The notes beneath the pieces are model-generated. The model made no database searches. It worked only from the letters and a program-made list of their open reading frames with translations, and had not been told where the DNA came from. The position numbers and the translations under genes are program-made. Shown piece by piece: positions 2,113-58,147 of a DNA stretch of 58,147 bases (position 1 is the stretch's first letter; every line of letters begins with the position of its first letter). Source of the stretch: Actinomycetes bacterium (lineage in GTDB: Bacteria > Actinomycetota > Actinomycetes > Streptosporangiales > Streptosporangiaceae); contig JAJYTD010000023.1 in assembly GCA_021793235.1 (NCBI GenBank), forward strand, positions 1-58,147, read 5' to 3'.

Positions 2113-4566
2113 TCAATCCTCGAACGAGGCGTCCTCCAGGATGTCGGCCAGGCCCCGGGTCTGGTAGTTGTCGACGATGAGGATCTGGGATTCCGGAAGC
2201 AGCCAGTAGCGCTGCTCGTAGTAGACGGTCGGCCCGTCGACACTGACGTTGTCCTCGCCGGAGTCCGTGCACGACACCGACCACACCCGGTAGAAGGCTT
2301 TCCGGTCGCCCATGTCGGCCAGTGACTCCCGCCGCGGCGCGAGCACGTCGGCGGGCTCGGGGGCGGTGGTGTCGTAGGACGGGTCGCATCCGTAGGGCTG
2401 GTTGCTCGGGTAGACCGGGGTGTTCTCATCCACGGGGCCGCTGCCGTAGCCAACGGCGATACCGGTCGGGCCCAGAATTTTGAGGTGGGGGCACTCGTAG
2501 TGGCCGCCCCACCAGTCGGGTTCCGCGCAGGAGCCGTCGGGGTCGGTGCGGATGAACAGCCATTCACCGACGTCACCCCTGCCATCCGCGCTACCCCATA
2601 CGGGGAATTCCTCTTCCCGCGCCTCCACCTCCCATTCCCCGGGTAGTTCCAGGGTCATGTTGCGGTAGCCGACCTCCTGGGTCTCCTGTTCGCCGGCCTT
2701 GCCCCATTCGGCCGCGGCGAGGATGTCGTCCATCTCCTCGACGCCCGAATCGTCGACGACGAAGATCTGCTCGTCGGGCAGGAACCAGGTGCGCTGGTCG
2801 TAGTACCACCAGTTGTTGACCCCGTTCTCGTCGACACCGGCGTCCTCGCCGAAGCAGGCCACCAGCACCTCCCGGTAGAGGGCCTCCCGGTCCCCGACCG
2901 GCCGGGGCTCAGCGAGCTCCGCGCGCCCGCTGGGGTCGCGGGCGTCGGGGTCCTCGTGTATCTCGCGGTCCTGCGGGCACGGCGGGGGGTTTCCGGAGGG
3001 GGCGTAGATGCCCGATGCCTCGTCCTCGGTGATGGGGCCCCAGCCGGGGCCGCCGTATTCGATTCCGCCGGGACCGAAGATCTTCACGTGGCGGCAGTCG
3101 GTCAGGACGGTCTCCCACAACCCCGGGTCCAGGCTCACGTTCTCGCATCCCGGCTGCCCGCCCGGGTACAGCAGCAGCCACTCGTCAGTGACCGCGTCCT
3201 CCGGGACAGAGGCATAGAAGTCGTCTTCGAGCGTCTGTGCTTTCCAGTCGTCGGGGATGCGCAGGGTCAACCCGCGGAACTCGATCTCCTGCCCGTCCGG
3301 CCGCTGTTCCTGCTGTTGCGATTCCGCGGTCTCCTCGGCACCGAACGGCAGGATGGGCTCGCCGGCCAGCGCCCGGCCCCCGACCCAGCCCCCCGTTGTG
3401 ACGGCCGTGGCGGTAGCGCCCGCGACGATGAGGGCGGTGGCCTTGCTCATCCCGGCGATGGTGCCGCCCGCCCCCACCGCCGCACCGGCGGCACTCGCGG
3501 CCCCTCCGCTCGCGGCGGCCGCCCCTCCGGCTGCCATGCCCCCGGCGGCGGCCGCTCCCCCGGCCGCGGCACCGCCGCCCGCCACCGCAGAGGACGCCGA
3601 CAGCACCGAGGCCGCGGCGATCCACGGGCCCGCGCCGCGGCCGGCATCGCCGAATCCGCGCCAGGTGCCCTGCAGCAGGGTGCGCAGCCGGTCGCGCAGC
3701 CCCACACGGTCGGCGTCGGCGACGTCGACACCGCTGGACTCCAGGACGGTGCGGAACGCGTCCTCGGCTGTCGGTCGCGTGTCGGGGTCGCGGTCGAGTG
3801 CGGCCCGCACCAGGGGCAGCAGGGCATCGGGCACCCCGTCGGTGTCCGGCTCGGCTTCACGGATGCGCTCGATCAGCGCCGCGGCGTCGCCGCGTCCGAA
3901 GGGGCCGCGGCCGGTCGCGGCGTAGACGACCAGGCCGCCCCAGGCGAACATGTCGGTCCCGCTGGTGGCGGGGCGTCCTGCCAGCCGCTCGGGCGCGATC
4001 CAGCCGGGGGTGCCGTAGATGCCCTCCTCGTCGCCTGCGTCATCGGCCGACCGCGCGATGCCGAAGTCGAGGACCCGCGGGCCGGCCGGGGACAGGATGA
4101 TGTTGGCGGGCTTGATGTCGCGGTGGACGATCCCGGCGGCGTGTACCGCCGCGAGCGCTTCGGCGGTACCCGCGGCGAACGCGGTCAGTTCGTCGCCGCT
4201 GAGCACGCCGTGCTCGGCGATGTGGTCTTTGAGGGTGGCGCCCTGCACGAACTCGGTCGCCAGCCACGGCTGCGGGGCCGCGGGGTCGGCGCCGAAGAAC
4301 GCCGGTGCGCATTCGGCGTCGACCCTGTGCAGCAGCTCCGCCTCGCGGGCGAATTGCTCCCGGTAGCCGGGGTCGGCGGCGAAGCGGGGGTGGATCACTT
4401 TGACGGCGATCCGCCCGCCGGAGTCGTCCAGTGCCCCGTAGACCGCTCCCATGCCGCCTTCGCCGATGCGTCCCACGACGCGGAAGGGGCCGATCGTGGT
4501 GGGGTCTGTTTCGGTCAGCGGCAGGAATCCGACGGGCAGCGGAGAGGGGGCGTCCTGAGGGGGCAT
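2113..4566 (-). CDS. Membrane Ser/Thr protein kinase with duplicated extracellular domain
   Basis: An 817-aa eukaryotic-type kinase. Residues 28-275 hold the catalytic domain: G-loop GEGGMG (35-40), Lys56 (AVK), HRDIKPAN (148-155), DFG (167-169) and APE (191-193), so it should be active. Residues about 315-370 are an Ala/Gly repeat stretch, followed by a likely membrane span (about 374-398). The outer part, from about 425, contains two copies of one module. Each opens with a G/Y-RxxTLxxPxxW strand, then has a Cys-containing YPGG/DPDGSC segment, HxKIxGPxGI, and a closing YYxQRxWxLPxxQIxxVDx helix. There are no PASTA repeats. ATG 4566 was chosen because MPPQDAP... leads directly into the kinase domain. 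The outer module is unknown to me and is presumably the ligand sensor. Confidence 0.9.
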   Translation of the reverse strand: MPPQDAPSPLPVGFLPLTETDPTTIGPFRVVGRIGEGGMGAVYGALDDSGGRIAVKVIHPRFAADPGYREQFAREAELLHRVDAECAPAFFGADPAAPQPWLATEFVQGATLKDHIAEHGVLSGDELTAFAAGTAEALAAVHAAGIVHRDIKPANIILSPAGPRVLDFGIARSADDAGDEEGIYGTPGWIAPERLAGRPATSGTDMFAWGGLVVYAATGRGPFGRGDAAALIERIREAEPDTDGVPDALLPLVRAALDRDPDTRPTAEDAFRTVLESSGVDVADADRVGLRDRLRTLLQGTWRGFGDAGRGAGPWIAAASVLSASSAVAGGGAAAGGAAAAGGMAAGGAAAASGGAASAAGAAVGAGGTIAGMSKATALIVAGATATAVTTGGWVGGRALAGEPILPFGAEETAESQQQEQRPDGQEIEFRGLTLRIPDDWKAQTLEDDFYASVPEDAVTDEWLLLYPGGQPGCENVSLDPGLWETVLTDCRHVKIFGPGGIEYGGPGWGPITEDEASGIYAPSGNPPPCPQDREIHEDPDARDPSGRAELAEPRPVGDREALYREVLVACFGEDAGVDENGVNNWWYYDQRTWFLPDEQIFVVDDSGVEEMDDILAAAEWGKAGEQETQEVGYRNMTLELPGEWEVEAREEEFPVWGSADGRGDVGEWLFIRTDPDGSCAEPDWWGGHYECPHLKILGPTGIAVGYGSGPVDENTPVYPSNQPYGCDPSYDTTAPEPADVLAPRRESLADMGDRKAFYRVWSVSCTDSGEDNVSVDGPTVYYEQRYWLLPESQILIVDNYQTRGLADILEDASFED

Positions 4567-53558: not shown

Positions 53559-54806
53559 TCACAGCCTTGTGGGCGCGGACACACCGATTACGGACAGCCC
53601 CGTTCTGAGAACACCGGCCGTAGCGGCGCACAGTTCAAGCTCCGCGTCAGCGGCTTGCCTACACGCGTCATCGGCCATGGCCCGGCCAGTGGTCGTCCCC
53701 GTGCTGACGCTGCGGTCCTCTCGCCATTCATGGTAGGCAATGGCCAGACTCTCGAGGTAACGCACGAGGATATGAGGTGCGCCCCGCCGGGCCGCGGTCC
53801 GCAGCACGCCGGGCCCGTCGAAGACCGCGCCGAGCAACGCGGCGGCCGAAGGCTCCTCCAGTGCCGCGACAGCCGCACCGGTGAGCTGACCGGGGTCGAC
53901 CGCACCGGGAGCGTGTCCGGCCTCGCGGGCCCATCGCCGGACACTGAGCGCGTGGGCATGGGCGTAGCGGATCGCGAACGCCGGGTTGGCATCGGTGTGC
54001 CGGATCCAGTCTCCGGGATGCTCGGCGGTCGGCAGGGCGGGCAGCCGCGGACCGGTCTCCTCACCGGGGCGCGGGTGCTCCGGAACGGACCGGCAGAAGG
54101 CGATGCGGGCGGCGGCCGCCCCGATGACGGTGAGCAGGCGCCCGACCTCACCACCGCTTTCCAGTGGCGCATCGAGATAGGGATCGCGCCAACCGGCCTC
54201 GGTGTCCCCGGCGGGGAACGGGATGTCCGCGGCCAGGGAGGGATTCGGCACATTCTTGGCAGGGCCGCCCTCGGCCGGGCCGCCGACGGCCGCGGCCATG
54301 CGCCGCCGGGCATCCTCACGGGCCCACCGGTACGCCTGTGCCAGGTCCCCGGCCCGGTGCAGCGCAGAGAGCTTCCACGGCCCCTCAGCGCCTTCCGGCC
54401 TCCTGCCCCGGGAAACCGCGCCTGTCAGATACCCGGCTCCCTCCGCGGCACCGCAGACCAGTGAGACGCGTGTTCGCGGAGTCAACTCGATCCCCACGAA
54501 ACCCGCTCCCTCGACCGTGGCCTCCACCACATGGGGACAGGACCGGAGCTTGGCCGCCATCGCCTCAGCGAGCTCAAGGGCCGACGCCCCCAGGGAGCGC
54601 GCCGTGCGCAGAGGCAGCGCCGTGGCGTAATCCCCTGCCCTGTCCTTGGCCGTACGCCGCGGCTCGGCATCGGGAAGCTCCGCCGGGTCCGTTCCGGTGA
54701 CCGCTCCCATGGCTGAACGCAGCAGCACCTCCACCGCCCACGGTGTCGCCCCGCCCTCGCCCGGCCACTCCTCGACGAACCGGCCACACCAGCGCTGATT
54801 CTCCAC
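53559..54806 (-). CDS. nrtL: ArgS-related anticodon-binding protein NrtL
   Basis: A 415-aa protein resembling arginyl-tRNA synthetase with the catalytic Rossmann core missing: there are no HIGH or KMSKS motifs. The N-terminal part has an Add1-like domain (TAKDRAGDYATALPL, AKLRSCPHVVEATVEGAGFVGIEL). The C-terminal DALR-type helical domain has FAIRYAHAHALSVRRWA and APHILVRYLESLAIAYHEW. Such proteins sit upstream of lysA in actinobacteria. Interaction with tRNA is presumed, function open. GTG 54806 is 16 bases after the receiver gene's stop. A tRNA-Arg gene lies 500 bases upstream on the other strand. Confidence 0.85.
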   Translation of the reverse strand: MENQRWCGRFVEEWPGEGGATPWAVEVLLRSAMGAVTGTDPAELPDAEPRRTAKDRAGDYATALPLRTARSLGASALELAEAMAAKLRSCPHVVEATVEGAGFVGIELTPRTRVSLVCGAAEGAGYLTGAVSRGRRPEGAEGPWKLSALHRAGDLAQAYRWAREDARRRMAAAVGGPAEGGPAKNVPNPSLAADIPFPAGDTEAGWRDPYLDAPLESGGEVGRLLTVIGAAAARIAFCRSVPEHPRPGEETGPRLPALPTAEHPGDWIRHTDANPAFAIRYAHAHALSVRRWAREAGHAPGAVDPGQLTGAAVAALEEPSAAALLGAVFDGPGVLRTAARRGAPHILVRYLESLAIAYHEWREDRSVSTGTTTGRAMADDACRQAADAELELCAATAGVLRTGLSVIGVSAPTRL

Positions 54807-54822
54807 GCCACCCGCCTCGGGC

Positions 54823-55203
54823 TCAGCCGGCCCCGGCCAGGCCGCGCACGGTCCCGATGAGCTCTTTCGGGTCGAACGGCTTGGTGACATAGGCGTCAAC
54901 CCCGATGTCCTGACCGCGCCGCAGGTCGTCCTCCTGCGCCCGAGCCGTGATGAGCACGACCTTCACCGTGCTGGTCTCCTCTCGTTCCCGGAGCCGCGCC
55001 ACGGTCACCCACCCGTCCAGCCGCGGCATCATGACATCGAGCGTGATCACATCCGGCCGGACCTCGTCCACCTGCTCCAGGCAGTCCTGCCCGTCCACCG
55101 CGGTATGCACCTCGAATCCTTCGAGCTGCAGATTGACGGCGATCAACTGCCGGATCACCTCGTTGTCGTCGACCACCAGTACCCGTGCCAGCGCTTCACC
55201 CAC
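54823..55203 (-). CDS. Single-domain response regulator receiver
   Basis: A 126-aa CheY-like protein without an output domain. Acid pocket in VLVVDDNEVIR (DD), phospho-acceptor Asp in DVITLDVMMPRLDGW, Thr in KVVLITARAQ, Lys in DAYVTKPFDPKEL: all complete. GTG 55203. It starts the unit that continues with nrtL. No histidine kinase is visible in the window; such receivers in actinobacteria often act through protein-protein contacts. Confidence 0.9.
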   Translation of the reverse strand: MGEALARVLVVDDNEVIRQLIAVNLQLEGFEVHTAVDGQDCLEQVDEVRPDVITLDVMMPRLDGWVTVARLREREETSTVKVVLITARAQEDDLRRGQDIGVDAYVTKPFDPKELIGTVRGLAGAG

Positions 55204-55310
55204 GGCCGCGAGACTAGCGCCCGCACCGTTCCCCCCGCTGGCGTATCCCCAACCCGGACGAAATTGCGCGACCCACCTCGTGGGCCCTGCTAAGGTTGTT
55301 CACGCAAAGC

Positions 55311-55382
55311 GCCCCCTTAGCTCAGGGGATAGAGCAACGGCCTCCGGAGCCGTGTGCGCAGGTTCGAATCCTGCAGGGGGCA
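55311..55382 (+). tRNA. tRNA-Arg (anticodon CCG)
   Basis: A 72-base cloverleaf: acceptor GCCCCCT/AGGGGGC, D-arm GCTC-AGGGGATA-GAGC, anticodon arm ACGGC-CTCCGGA-GCCGT with CCG at positions 34-36, short variable loop, T-arm GCAGG-TTCGAAT-CCTGC, discriminator A. CCA is not encoded. A -10-like TAAGGT lies at 55291-55296. The 3' end borders mobile DNA, consistent with use as an integration site. Confidence 0.96.
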
Positions 55383-55412
55383 CCGGGCGGGAAGCAGCCG
55401 AAACCAGGAACT

Positions 55413-55444
55413 GACCAGCGGAAACGCATGTGCGACCGCTGGTC
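55413..55444 (+). terminator. Terminator-like hairpin after tRNA-Arg
   Basis: GACCAGCGG (55413-55421) pairs with CCGCTGGTC (55436-55444), loop 14, followed by TTTCC. It is 30 bases beyond the tRNA 3' end on the same strand. Confidence 0.6.
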
Positions 55445-55523
55445 TTTCCATGTCATCTTCGGTCACGTGAATCCAGCTTTTTCGAACATCTGTGGACCAG
55501 CCGTGGACCAAGGCATTACAGAC

Positions 55524-55564
55524 AAAAAGGGCGGCGCCCCCGTATCAGACAGGAGGCACCGCCC
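55524..55564 (-). terminator. Intrinsic terminator of the integrase remnant
   Basis: On the minus strand GGGCGGTGCC (55564-55555) pairs with GGCGCCGCCC (55538-55529, one G-U), followed by TTTTT (55528-55524). This is a classical rho-independent signal 28 bases after the integrase stop, and it is rare in form for this GC-rich genome. Confidence 0.8.
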
Positions 55565-55591
55565 TTCACTGTGAGTCCGTTGTGTCCTACG

Positions 55592-56040
55592 TCACTCGTG
55601 GTCGCCCATGCGATCGATCCACACGTCGTCCATGTCCTGCCAGACCTGGGCGTAGACGCGCTGCAGCACTTCCACGCTGTGACCGGCCCACTTCGCGACC
55701 TGGGGCGCGGGGACGCCCTTGTTGAGCCTGTAGGTGACCCCGGCATGCCGGAGGTCGTAAGGCCGCTTCAGGAGCGGCCCTTCCCTCTCTTCGGGCGTGA
55801 GCGCAAGCTCCCGGGTTCGCTGCCACACGCGCCAGTACGTGGACGGCTGGATTGGGTTTCCCTGCTCACTGCGAAATAGCCGCCCGTCCATCCCGATTCC
55901 GAACTGCCGAAGGTGCTCGCGCAACATCCCCACCAGCACGGGCGGTATCGGCACCGTGCGCGACGCGCGCCTTCCGCGCCCTTTCAGGCCGCGTTCCTCG
56001 TGGACGGCGCCATCGTTCGTCCACTGTCGACCGGGAGCAG
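55592..56040 (-). pseudogene. Tyrosine site-specific integrase, 3' remnant
   Basis: About 148 C-terminal residues of an AICE/phage-type integrase: WTNDGAVHEERGLKGR, RTVPIPPVLVGMLREHL, DGRLFRSEQGNPIQP, PYDLRHAGVTYRLNKGV, WAGHSVEVLQRVYAQV. The late catalytic residues (R-H---, H of GHS, Tyr of RVYAQ) are present. The N-terminal core-binding domain and the first catalytic Arg are missing. Homology stops at the left arm of the palindrome (56046), and the frame runs on through unrelated sequence to 56419. Its 3' end faces the 3' end of tRNA-Arg, the arrangement of an element integrated there. Inactive. Confidence 0.8.
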
Positions 56041-56045
56041 AAAAT

Positions 56046-56107
56046 GCTGATCTTGACGTTGTGCACGTGTGGGCGCGCGTTTTGACGTGCACAACGTCAA
56101 GATCAGC
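56046..56107. repeat. Large palindrome, 23-bp perfect arms, 16-base loop
   Basis: Left arm 56046-56068 begins GCTGATCTTGACG and ends TGCACGT; right arm 56085-56107 is its exact reverse complement. The loop is GTGGGCGCGCGTTTTG. It lies exactly where the integrase remnant ends and sequence related to the DUF2637 remnant region begins. No gene explains it. Confidence 0.9.
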
Positions 56108-56249
56108 GCAGAGGGGGCCGAGGGCGTCGCGGAGGTGGATGTGATGGTGCGCACGCCGGGCCGAAGATCGCGCGGTAGCGGTATAGGAATACGGCTTCCA
56201 GCCGAGTGCGAGGATCCGGTTGCGGCGCGCGGCGTCCTCGCGCCGGTTA

Positions 56250-56720
56250 GCCAGCGCCCACCGCCATGTCTCCACCTGGACCTGCGAAACCACGCCCTCA
56301 GGCGAGGCCGACACCCGAGCCTCGACCTTCTCCGTCCCGCCGTCTCGGGTCTCGGCCACCTGAAGACGAGGCGACTGCGCCCCACAGTCCTCGTTCTCCG
56401 GAGCCAGCGGGGACAGCACCCCACCGTCCTCTGAGGGCTGTGTTTGCCGCGTGCGTGCTCATTGCGTACGCACGCGGCGTTAGCGCGGAACTGCCGCATC
56501 AGGAGCTCGTAGGCCCCGATCAGCGCGACCGCAGGCCAGGTGTGGATGATCCAGGACCAGGCCGTGGGCTCGGCGACCGTACTGTTCGCCGCCAGCGACG
56601 CCGCGCTGCCGATGATGAGCAGGGTCCATGGCAGCACACCGCCACGCCGTCCCTGGCGGGCGTCGTTGAACAGGGTCATAGACGAGGCGATGACCCTGCC
56701 GTCCACCGACAGCGGGAACA
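56250..56720 (-). pseudogene. DUF2637 (SpdB-like) membrane protein remnant with frameshift
   Basis: From about 56720 leftwards, one minus frame reads FPLSVDGRVIASSMTLFND, ARQGRRGGVLPWTLLIIGSA, then WPAVALIGAYELLMRQFR. This is the membrane core of DUF2637 proteins found in actinobacterial integrative conjugative elements. Near 56420-56450 the coding shifts to another frame, which continues QTQPSEDGGVLSPLAPEN, later VETWRWALANRRED, the usual C-terminal region. After that the expected ending is lost (ARRNRILALGWKPYSY is unrecognised). The 5' end is cut by transposase sequence at about 56725. Boundaries are approximate. Confidence 0.7.
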
Positions 56721-56726
56721 GCGTCG

Positions 56727-56998
56727 CCCGCGTCTGGCGCATCGGCGACCGGATCGCCGCCGCCGGCCTGTTCGGGCTGGGCGACAAGGGGTACGCGGGC
56801 TACTCGCCGGCGGTGCTGACCCCGTTCAAGGGGCGGAACAAGCCGGAGTGGAAGAAGGAGGCCAACCGCGTCCACGCGCGCCTGCGCAGTCCGGGCGAGC
56901 GCACGATGGCCCAGCTCAAGAACTGGCGCATCCTGCGCCGTCTGCGGTGCTGCCCGCACCGGGCCACCGAGGTCGCCCGCGCGGTGCTGGTCCTTTAA
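56727..56998 (+). pseudogene. DDE transposase C-terminal fragment (IS5-like)
   Basis: About 90 residues: VWRIGDRIAAAGLFGLGDKGYAG, then TPFKGRNKPEWKKEANRVHA, RLRSPGERTMAQLKNW, RILRRLRCCPHRA, ending at TAA 56998. The last third of an actinobacterial DDE_Tnp_4-type transposase is recognisable (DKGY second catalytic Asp region and GER Glu). Upstream sequence in this frame belongs to the DUF2637 remnant, so the 5' two thirds are gone. It differs from the IS at the window ends. Confidence 0.75.
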
Positions 56999-57028
56999 CT
57001 ACGCGAAGCACGATGAAAAACGCTCAGT

Positions 57029-58024
57029 TCAGTGGGCGGTCTCATGCTCGGCCGGCGGGACGCGGCTGATTCTCGTATCCAGCCAGATCTTGACATCAGC
57101 CACAGCACTGGTGACGAGTTCGTTGGGTGCACCGGAGGCTTGGATTGAAGTACTGGCTAGTGCCGCGAGCTGTGGATCTGTCAGTGATAATTGCGAGCGG
57201 GCGATCTGGTACTCCATAAGCAAGCTGGTTTCAAGTAGCAGCGGGTCGTCGGAGCCCAAGGAACACGGCACCCCAGCCTTCAGGAGTTGAGGGAGGGGAT
57301 GCTCGTCGAGGTGCTTGATGACTCCTAGCACGTGGTTGGATGTCAGGCACACGTCCAACGTTGTGCCTTCGTCAGCGAGGCGCTTCATAAGCGGTGGGTG
57401 CTCAACGGCACGCACGCCGTGGGCGATTCGGTTGGGAGAGAGCGCGTCGACCGCGTTTTGAATGCTCGGTGCGCCAGCAAGTTCGCCTGCGTGCGGTGCG
57501 ATGATCAGGTTTGCTTCCCGGGCGATCATGAAGGCTTTTTCGAAGGCTTCCGGAGGCGCTGCGGCCTCATCACCGGTAAGGCCGAAGGTTACGACTCCGC
57601 GGTCGGCATAGTCGGCGGCAAGCTGTGCCAGGGCGATGGCGTGGTGCGGATCACGGTTGCGGCTGGCACCGAGTACAAGCCCAAACCCCACGCCCAAGCG
57701 CGCGCCTGTGGCGTTCCCCGTTTTTAGGACAAGGTCAAGCACCTCTTCGATGGAACCGAGCGTGGGCGCGTAGGTCGTTGGGGTGAAGTGTGGCTCGATC
57801 CAGACCGCTCCTGAGGCTGCTGCGTCTTCCACAACTTCATGCACGAGGCGTTGGAGGTCGCTCCTGGTGCGAATCAGTTTGACGATCTTTCGGTAACAGT
57901 TCTGAAACTGATCAAACGAGTCGTAGGGAGCGGTCTGTGGTATCGGTTTCCCGTAGGTGCGTGCCAGGTCCGCAAGCGTGGCGGGCCGCATGGCGCCTTC
58001 AAGATGGAGGTGGAGGTCGGCTTT
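57029..58024 (-). pseudogene. Adenosine deaminase family gene, 5' end removed by IS insertion
   Basis: Reading from the IS border: KADLHLHLEGAMRPATLADLA (cited in part), with the HxH zinc ligands, then IIAPHAGELAG (His, catalytic Glu), NRIAHGVRAVEH and CSLGSDDPLLLE (zinc Asp). About 331 codons remain, ending EHETAH. Only the first few codons are missing: TIR bases begin at 58026, and upstream the frame meets a stop at 58060 without a good start codon. An internal ATG at 57991 exists but would exclude the HxH motif. The enzyme deaminates adenosine or a related purine. Probably non-functional, unless translated from an IS-supplied start. Lower GC than neighbours, suggesting transfer. Confidence 0.85.
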
Positions 58025-58025
58025 A

Positions 58026-58147
58026 GAGTGTGTCTCAATACCGTGGGTTGTGCTTGGTCAGATGGCGGTAGCAGATTTTGATGCAGCCGATAGCGACCAT
58101 GGCGAGGAAATTGCTGGCCTTGCGCTCCCAGCGGATGCCCAGGCGGC
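58026..58147 (-). mobile_element. IS5-family element, 3' end with transposase C-terminus
   Basis: A 36-codon frame (58147-58035, stop TGA) reads RLGIRWERKASNFLAMVAIG, then CIKICYRHLTKHNPRY. The RxxxRWERxxxxxLxxxxLxCxxIxYR pattern is the C-terminal end of IS5-type transposases. The inverted repeat GAGTGTGTCTCAATA at 58026-58040 overlaps the stop codon. TTA precedes it. It pairs in orientation and repeat sequence with the IS part at 1-122. Confidence 0.8.

Follow-up and report, generated by a model that had tools for sequence, protein, structure and literature searches.

The 62-bp palindrome near the right end of the DNA stretch analyzed here (58,147 nucleotides of contig JAJYTD010000023.1 from an actinomycete of the family Streptosporangiaceae, hereinafter the window) belongs to a family of dispersed REP-like repeats. 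Their spread, or their overwriting at existing sites, is probably the work of a dedicated nuclease that is not related to the RAYT transposases. Copies of the palindrome flank a gene for this putative nuclease, and homologs of the gene in other genomes are often enclosed by repeats of their own. The arrangement points to a selfish repeat of a type not yet described, in which a DNA-cutting enzyme is the driving force; no published report of such a nuclease–palindrome pairing was found in the PMC literature, which omits most subscription journals.

The palindrome is as real as the preliminary description of this region had it: two perfectly complementary arms of 23 nt are separated by 16 nt (Table 1). 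Folded as single-stranded DNA, it reaches -29.2 kcal/mol, compared with -12.8 (sd 2.2) for shuffled sequences (z -7.6), and none of 200 shuffles was as stable. Related loci contain only 30 hairpins with a score of at least 14 and a loop of at most 30 bases in 772,744 bases, so that a perfect 23-bp stem goes far beyond what chance would yield. Neither a T run nor a terminator-like match is present at the palindrome, which bears out the earlier remark on the missing U-tract and eliminates an intrinsic terminator. A known Rfam RNA was rejected as well, the tRNA being the only match above the gathering score in positions 54000-58147.

Table 1 Features at and around the palindrome in the window
Feature	Position	Strand	Evidence or remark
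62-bp palindrome, member of the dispersed family	56046..56107	+	Closest kin are the two C70 copies (96% and 95%)
Left arm of palindrome, 23 nt	56046..56068	+	Inverted-repeat detection
Right arm of palindrome, 23 nt, perfect complement of left arm	56085..56107	+	Inverted-repeat detection
Truncated 3' end of AbiEi-DUF559-type nuclease gene, contiguous with palindrome	56108..56244	-	56046-56244 is 92% identical to C70:3895-4091; protein residues 263-306 of 309
Tyrosine integrase remnant, C-terminal third	55592..56032	-	PF00589 positions 64-167 of 172, 24.5 bits, under the cut-off of 27.1
tRNA-Arg(CCG) adjoining integrase remnant (context only)	55311..55384	+	

The palindrome had been placed exactly at the break of an integrase gene, which is nearly correct: the remnant corresponds to residues 309-457 of the intact 459-aa integrase of NZ_CP109278.1 (a reference taken from plasmids), and the homology ends 14 bases before the palindrome begins. 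No relatives of this integrase were detected by tblastn in the viral_contigs set. On its other side, the palindrome is joined to the 3' end of a nuclease gene, and the 92% match of the combined segment to C70, a contig of the same genome, identifies it as the downstream palindrome of a broken nuclease unit. This gene, which is the key to the finding, was missed when it was proposed that no gene explains the palindrome. The truncation of the integrase at so short a distance would fit a deletion scar or an origin remnant peculiar to the integrase locus, but 61 other places in the genome match the same family, and this copy number refutes such a reading, to which we attach next to no credence. 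The earlier suggestion of a deletion scar is only partly apt: the integrase remnant borders on the broken end of another unit, made up of the nuclease gene 3' end and its flanking palindrome; nothing in the analysis supports a remnant of a replication or transfer origin. To the right of the palindrome, the C-terminal part of a DDE_Tnp_4 transposase (56540-56998, plus strand, E 2.6e-9) adds to the broken mobile genes of the region, and an adenosine deaminase-like gene (57029-57991, minus strand, PF00962, E 1.5e-70) lies beside this mobile-element debris. A second, unrelated inverted repeat with 16-nt arms (88%, 1-nt spacing) is present at 56446-56478.

Within the 4.8-Mb genome, a BLAST search seeded with a 91-base query produced at least 75 matches, and a covariance model built from 39 copies produced 122 matches that correspond to at least 62 places. 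Of these, 54 score at least 40 bits, and some of the other eight, which score less, may be chance matches; the family copy numbers are lower bounds because the best 40 candidates per genome (150 of 3881 for the covariance model) were scored. The consensus of the 39 copies has GCTGATC at one end and GATCAGCG at the other, and the family consensus comprises an arm GCTGATCTTGACGYTGTGCAC, a loop of about 16-20 bases, often with CGCGCGTTTT, and an arm GTGCACARCGTCAAGATCAGC. The two arms covary: in the 52 of the 62 copies with both arms, the fraction of Watson-Crick pairing between the arms is 0.944, compared with a mean of 0.915 and a maximum of 0.936 in 2000 trials in which right arms were shuffled between copies. 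Furthermore, none of the 62 places falls inside a called gene, compared with 2340 of 4000 random positions in the fetched loci; the custom gene call is rough, and an overlap of up to about 26 bases with the end of a gene was still counted as outside. The gaps that harbor the copies are convergent in 23 cases, tandem in 24, divergent in 5 and unresolved in 10. Several copies lie less than 250 bases from contig ends (L082, 24; L083, 174; L087, 170; L014, 141; L039, 10), which may reflect assembly breaks caused by repeats; C27:24 and C47:174 are possibly the same locus. Two copies in L015 (2469 and 2936), 467 bases apart, have the right flank in common, which suggests a local duplication.

A search with the exact two-arm pattern found nothing in 84,980 species genomes, a set from which the source genome may have been left out, and nothing in viral_contigs, so that carriage by phages was dismissed. 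Among 40 other genomes of the same family, order and class, there was a single weak match, to a palindrome whose ends are similar but whose inner stem differs. Of the three origins offered in the preliminary description, the small mobile palindrome of the MITE or REP type was thus the right guess in that the element is multi-copy, extragenic and not found as an exact pattern in other species. The strict MITE features, a target duplication and the ends of a DDE element, were not found in the copies checked, and mobility is inferred. The element is dispersed in many copies, contrary to the first half of the outcome (unique, and inside an intact conserved gene in relatives) that had been held to speak against a mobile palindrome.

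The link to the nuclease is clearest in C70, where two copies of the palindrome (2996-3068 and 4020-4091) enclose a single gene for a protein of 309 aa and the second copy overlaps its stop codon. The nuclease protein is encoded at three places in the genome, namely C70, C36 and the window. The C36 paralog, 57% identical to the C70 protein, also lies between two palindromes; these are of similar length and have similar ends, but possess another stem and represent a second family, counted by hand at 22 places. Hence two nucleases and two matching palindrome families coexist in one genome.

The C70 protein matches AbiEi_1 (PF09407, E 5e-8), with MTES_1575 and DUF559 below the cut-off, and none of four nucleases examined had an NCBIfam match above the curated cut-off. 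A structure model was generated for the protein of locus L126 together with 44 relatives (mean pLDDT 94.4). In this model, residues 199-299 are similar to the homing endonuclease I-Bth0305I (3r3p; Z 11.2, 2.7 A, 92 residues aligned) and to Vsr (Z 9.3, 2.4 A, 93 aligned), whereas residues 7-194 are similar to the AbiEi antitoxin of a type IV toxin-antitoxin system (6y8q; Z 9.7, 8.3 A, 173 aligned), with Rv2827c as the best Foldseek match (E 3e-4); the absence of other families from this comparison carries no evidential weight. Profile search of the PDB also retrieved 3hrl (E 4e-6) and 3r3p (E 0.03). In an alignment of 45 sequences, E202 is conserved in 45, D235 in 42, H252 in 32 and D259 in 44, and we infer that these columns hold the residues for which the EDxHD nucleases are named. 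By its modeled structure, the protein is an AbiEi-like DNA-binding part joined to a homing-nuclease fold of the Vsr/I-Bth0305I type, and the predicted fold places the enzyme among the Vsr/EDxHD nucleases. It differs from the AbiEi antitoxin in being fused to a predicted nuclease. It also differs from EDxHD homing endonucleases, with which it shares the predicted catalytic fold and the conserved E, D, H and D: the gene was not seen in an intron or intein, and it sits between two repeat copies instead of interrupting one target, with many solitary repeats elsewhere. AbiEi is reported to bind two 23-bp inverted repeats (PMC7319586), and I-Bth0305I to dimerize on a target of nearly 60 bp (PMC3943268). 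The agreement of these target sizes with the 23-bp arms and the 62-bp length of the palindrome is suggestive.

The same report describes both AbiEi and Rv2827c as binding 23-bp inverted repeats in their own promoters (PMC7319586), which raises the alternative that the AbiEi-like protein is a repressor whose operator is an inverted repeat. In that case the palindromes beside its gene would serve as operator and terminator, the dispersed copies would form a regulon or terminate transcription at 3' ends, and mobility would play no part. The predominance of convergent and tandem gaps (47 of the 62 copies, only 5 being divergent) is in line with this proposal, but the presence of the palindrome downstream as well as upstream of the gene and the predicted nuclease fold, with its conserved E, D, H and D, are not. 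Two further observations, given below, bring us to regard the repressor as unlikely.

Homologs of the nuclease at an E-value of 1e-20 or better were found in 30 of 200 genomes of the family. Of 17 close homologs, 13 have a long hairpin upstream, 14 downstream and 12 on both sides; when the two loci of our own genome, the source of the idea, are set aside, hairpins on both sides remain in 10 of 15. The 13 distant homologs have a long hairpin upstream in two cases and none downstream or on both sides. The split between the groups was drawn after the hairpins had been seen, along a gap in bit score (at least 130 versus at most 89 in the fetched loci); the frameshifted L115, with an N-terminus of the close type, is in neither group. 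The hairpin background in these loci is 3 in 36,556 bases for the close group, the palindrome beside the frameshifted gene of L107 being counted as background, and 0 in 28,612 bases for the distant one.

A scan of named genomes yielded 76 nuclease loci, in Actinorugispora, Planomonospora, Nocardiopsis, Pseudonocardia, Nocardioides, Marmoricola and others, as well as in one Chloroflexi and one Dormiibacterota assembly. A hairpin is present upstream in 14, downstream in 13 and on both sides in 9 of these. The two flanks resemble each other beyond the 99% control level in 39 of 65 loci, compared with 17 of 1625 controls, which were equally spaced stretches within each locus; of the 76, eight loci were not entered, L177 has no located gene, and L144 and L155 have less than 300 bases on one side. 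The 26 loci that do not exceed the control level include L172 of Allonocardiopsis, a fairly close homolog (49%). In a second test with other windows, 50 of 72 loci (L168, L196, L200 and L201 being omitted) exceed 24, the 99% level of controls made of random locus pairs, which include repeat-sharing pairs (maximum 79.8). The named loci and those of the 200 genomes overlap (for example, L097 and L126, with identical palindromes), and because the loci share ancestry, the locus counts are not independent. Not every homolog has a palindrome, since many flanks in Nocardioides and Marmoricola consist instead of short repeats in arrays that run in opposite directions on the two sides. In Nocardioides, nuclease genes flanked by such short direct-repeat arrays were seen in L175, L176, L179, L182, L187 and L189. 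Pseudonocardia eucalypti has four nuclease loci, in which the flanking repeats match clearly at L134 and L138, with a different sequence at each, and more weakly at L136 and L151.

The repeats are specific to the genome and to the nuclease. In genome G020, the palindrome beside the nuclease gene occurs full-length at 87% identity or better in at least 21 places (40 of 153 candidates scored). In the congener G091, at least 6 places were found among the best 40 candidates, none of them above 80% identity. Two genomes of Nocardiopsis, from which L147 and L143 come, gave at least 9 and at least 33 matches, full-length at 80% or less, with some short pieces at 93-100%, and six other genomes, including our own, gave none. 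The palindrome of Actinorugispora endophytica has at least 80 matches in its own genome, both readings counted (40 of 168 candidates scored); seven other genomes gave no match. For a Nocardioides repeat, 30 matches were found in the home genome and 15 weaker ones in one further Nocardioides genome, with none in four others. Across 27 loci, chosen for having hairpins, nuclease similarity and palindrome similarity are correlated (Mantel r 0.26, exceeded in none of 5000 permutations). Such genome specificity is not expected of regulatory sites, which tells against the repressor.

A comparison of G020 and G091 shows palindromes changing at fixed sites. Nineteen solitary palindromes of G020 were read together with the pair that flanks the nuclease gene. 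Ten of the nineteen (four reversed) occupy one fixed point in a larger dispersed repeat, and 3 of 12 further stretches contain the larger repeat with a different 62-bp palindrome at that exact point, which shares only about the outer 12 bases with the first type. For this second type, scoring of 40 of 139 candidates gave at least some 40 places in G020, and G091 has diverged copies; no nuclease gene was seen beside it. Several copies of the larger repeat (L231-L246) also contain a second palindrome of another kind. A query of joined G020 flanks retrieved eight orthologous sites in G091, of which four (L251, L255, L256 and L257) have a palindrome of another type at or near the site. In L252 the palindrome is reduced to its outer part, in L254 a short remnant was seen by eye, and L253 and L258 have no hairpin and no precise junction. 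A precise empty site with a target duplication was not among the eight. Judged from these sequences, the differences fit either an inner stem that was overwritten or insertion at the same points more than once.

A swap of sequence at one site between congeners is not expected of a repressor system either. The same turnover is not readily explained by a role in genome marking or defense, with palindromes that label self DNA or act as decoys and a nuclease directed at invading DNA. A self mark would be well served by dispersed sites, and the AbiEi models of the defense library PADLOC match the nuclease protein; nevertheless, we consider this role very improbable.

The system can be compared with REP/REPIN-RAYT elements, which it resembles in consisting of short extragenic palindromes in tens of copies or more, some of which flank the gene of the enzyme, and in having enzyme-specific palindromes and sites that differ between relatives. 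However, the consensus of the 39 copies lacks the GTAG tag, and the palindromes in the 27 loci measure 42-72 bp (mostly 58-72), compared with 20-40 bp given for REPs (PMC3733652). Furthermore, a search for the Y1 transposase family PF01797 found nothing in the genome (119 contigs, 99.97% complete), whereas an identical search found the family in 5 of 14 control genomes, so that a RAYT-type transposase as the mover is out; the partner is instead the predicted Vsr/EDxHD-type nuclease with its AbiEi-like domain. The system works like REP/RAYT but, with no HUH enzyme match and no GTAG, is not a member of that class. Dispersed palindromes without a RAYT are also described among the CGTC-tagged REPs (PMC3733652). 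In our family, by contrast, CGTC lies inside the arm, followed by AAGATC, and not at the repeat end, and a linked nuclease is present, whereas the CGTC-tagged REPs are described there without a dedicated transposase. With MITEs the palindrome shares its short, dispersed, non-coding inverted repeat, but neither a parent DDE element with these ends nor a target duplication, which the preliminary description proposed to look for, was found among the copies checked.

REPs and MITEs are common, and the palindrome could be an ordinary one moved by some other transposase, with the nuclease gene as a frequent passenger or a user of the sites. The CGTC-type REPs, known without a dedicated transposase (PMC3733652), offer a precedent. 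Against this stand the lack of Y1_Tnp and the pairing of nuclease-specific repeats with homologs of one gene in several genera; in addition, no transposase was seen by eye in two other intervals between close copies, where the genes looked unrelated to transposition. We rate an ordinary element slightly below the repressor, and improbable.

Our preferred explanation remains a REP-like palindrome with a nuclease of its own. In its autonomous form, the element would be a nuclease gene of some 300 codons enclosed by a pair of almost identical palindromes, mostly of 58-72 bp, and the solitary palindromes would be its non-autonomous copies. The AbiEi-like N-terminal part may bind the two arms of about 23 bp, one subunit per arm, and the Vsr/EDxHD-type C-terminal domain may nick or cut at the palindrome or at a target. 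Repair, or copying of the hairpin strand, would then place the palindrome at a new extragenic site or overwrite an older one. In the window, the unit is broken, its nuclease 3' end and downstream palindrome being joined to the truncated integrase beside a tRNA gene. In a more specific form of the model, which we put forward tentatively, each AbiEi-fused nuclease would recognize palindromes by the conserved outer arms and cut them, and repair would overwrite the inner stem with the version that belongs to that nuclease. It is conceivable, with equal reservation, that successive nucleases sweep through a genome and recolor its extragenic palindromes in place.

A genome without a detectable RAYT contains two families of palindromes, and each family is tied to a nuclease gene of its own. 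Several actinobacterial genera share the arrangement, which gives a named enzyme as a candidate. If cutting and conversion in place are true, they would represent a second, independently evolved way of spreading short palindromes, and the enzymes might provide sequence-specific nucleases for palindromic targets as long as about 60 bp. A homing drive of the kind outlined above, if true, would constitute a class of mobile repeats that is separate from RAYT/REP, MITEs and classical homing, and might explain palindrome families in genomes that lack RAYTs.
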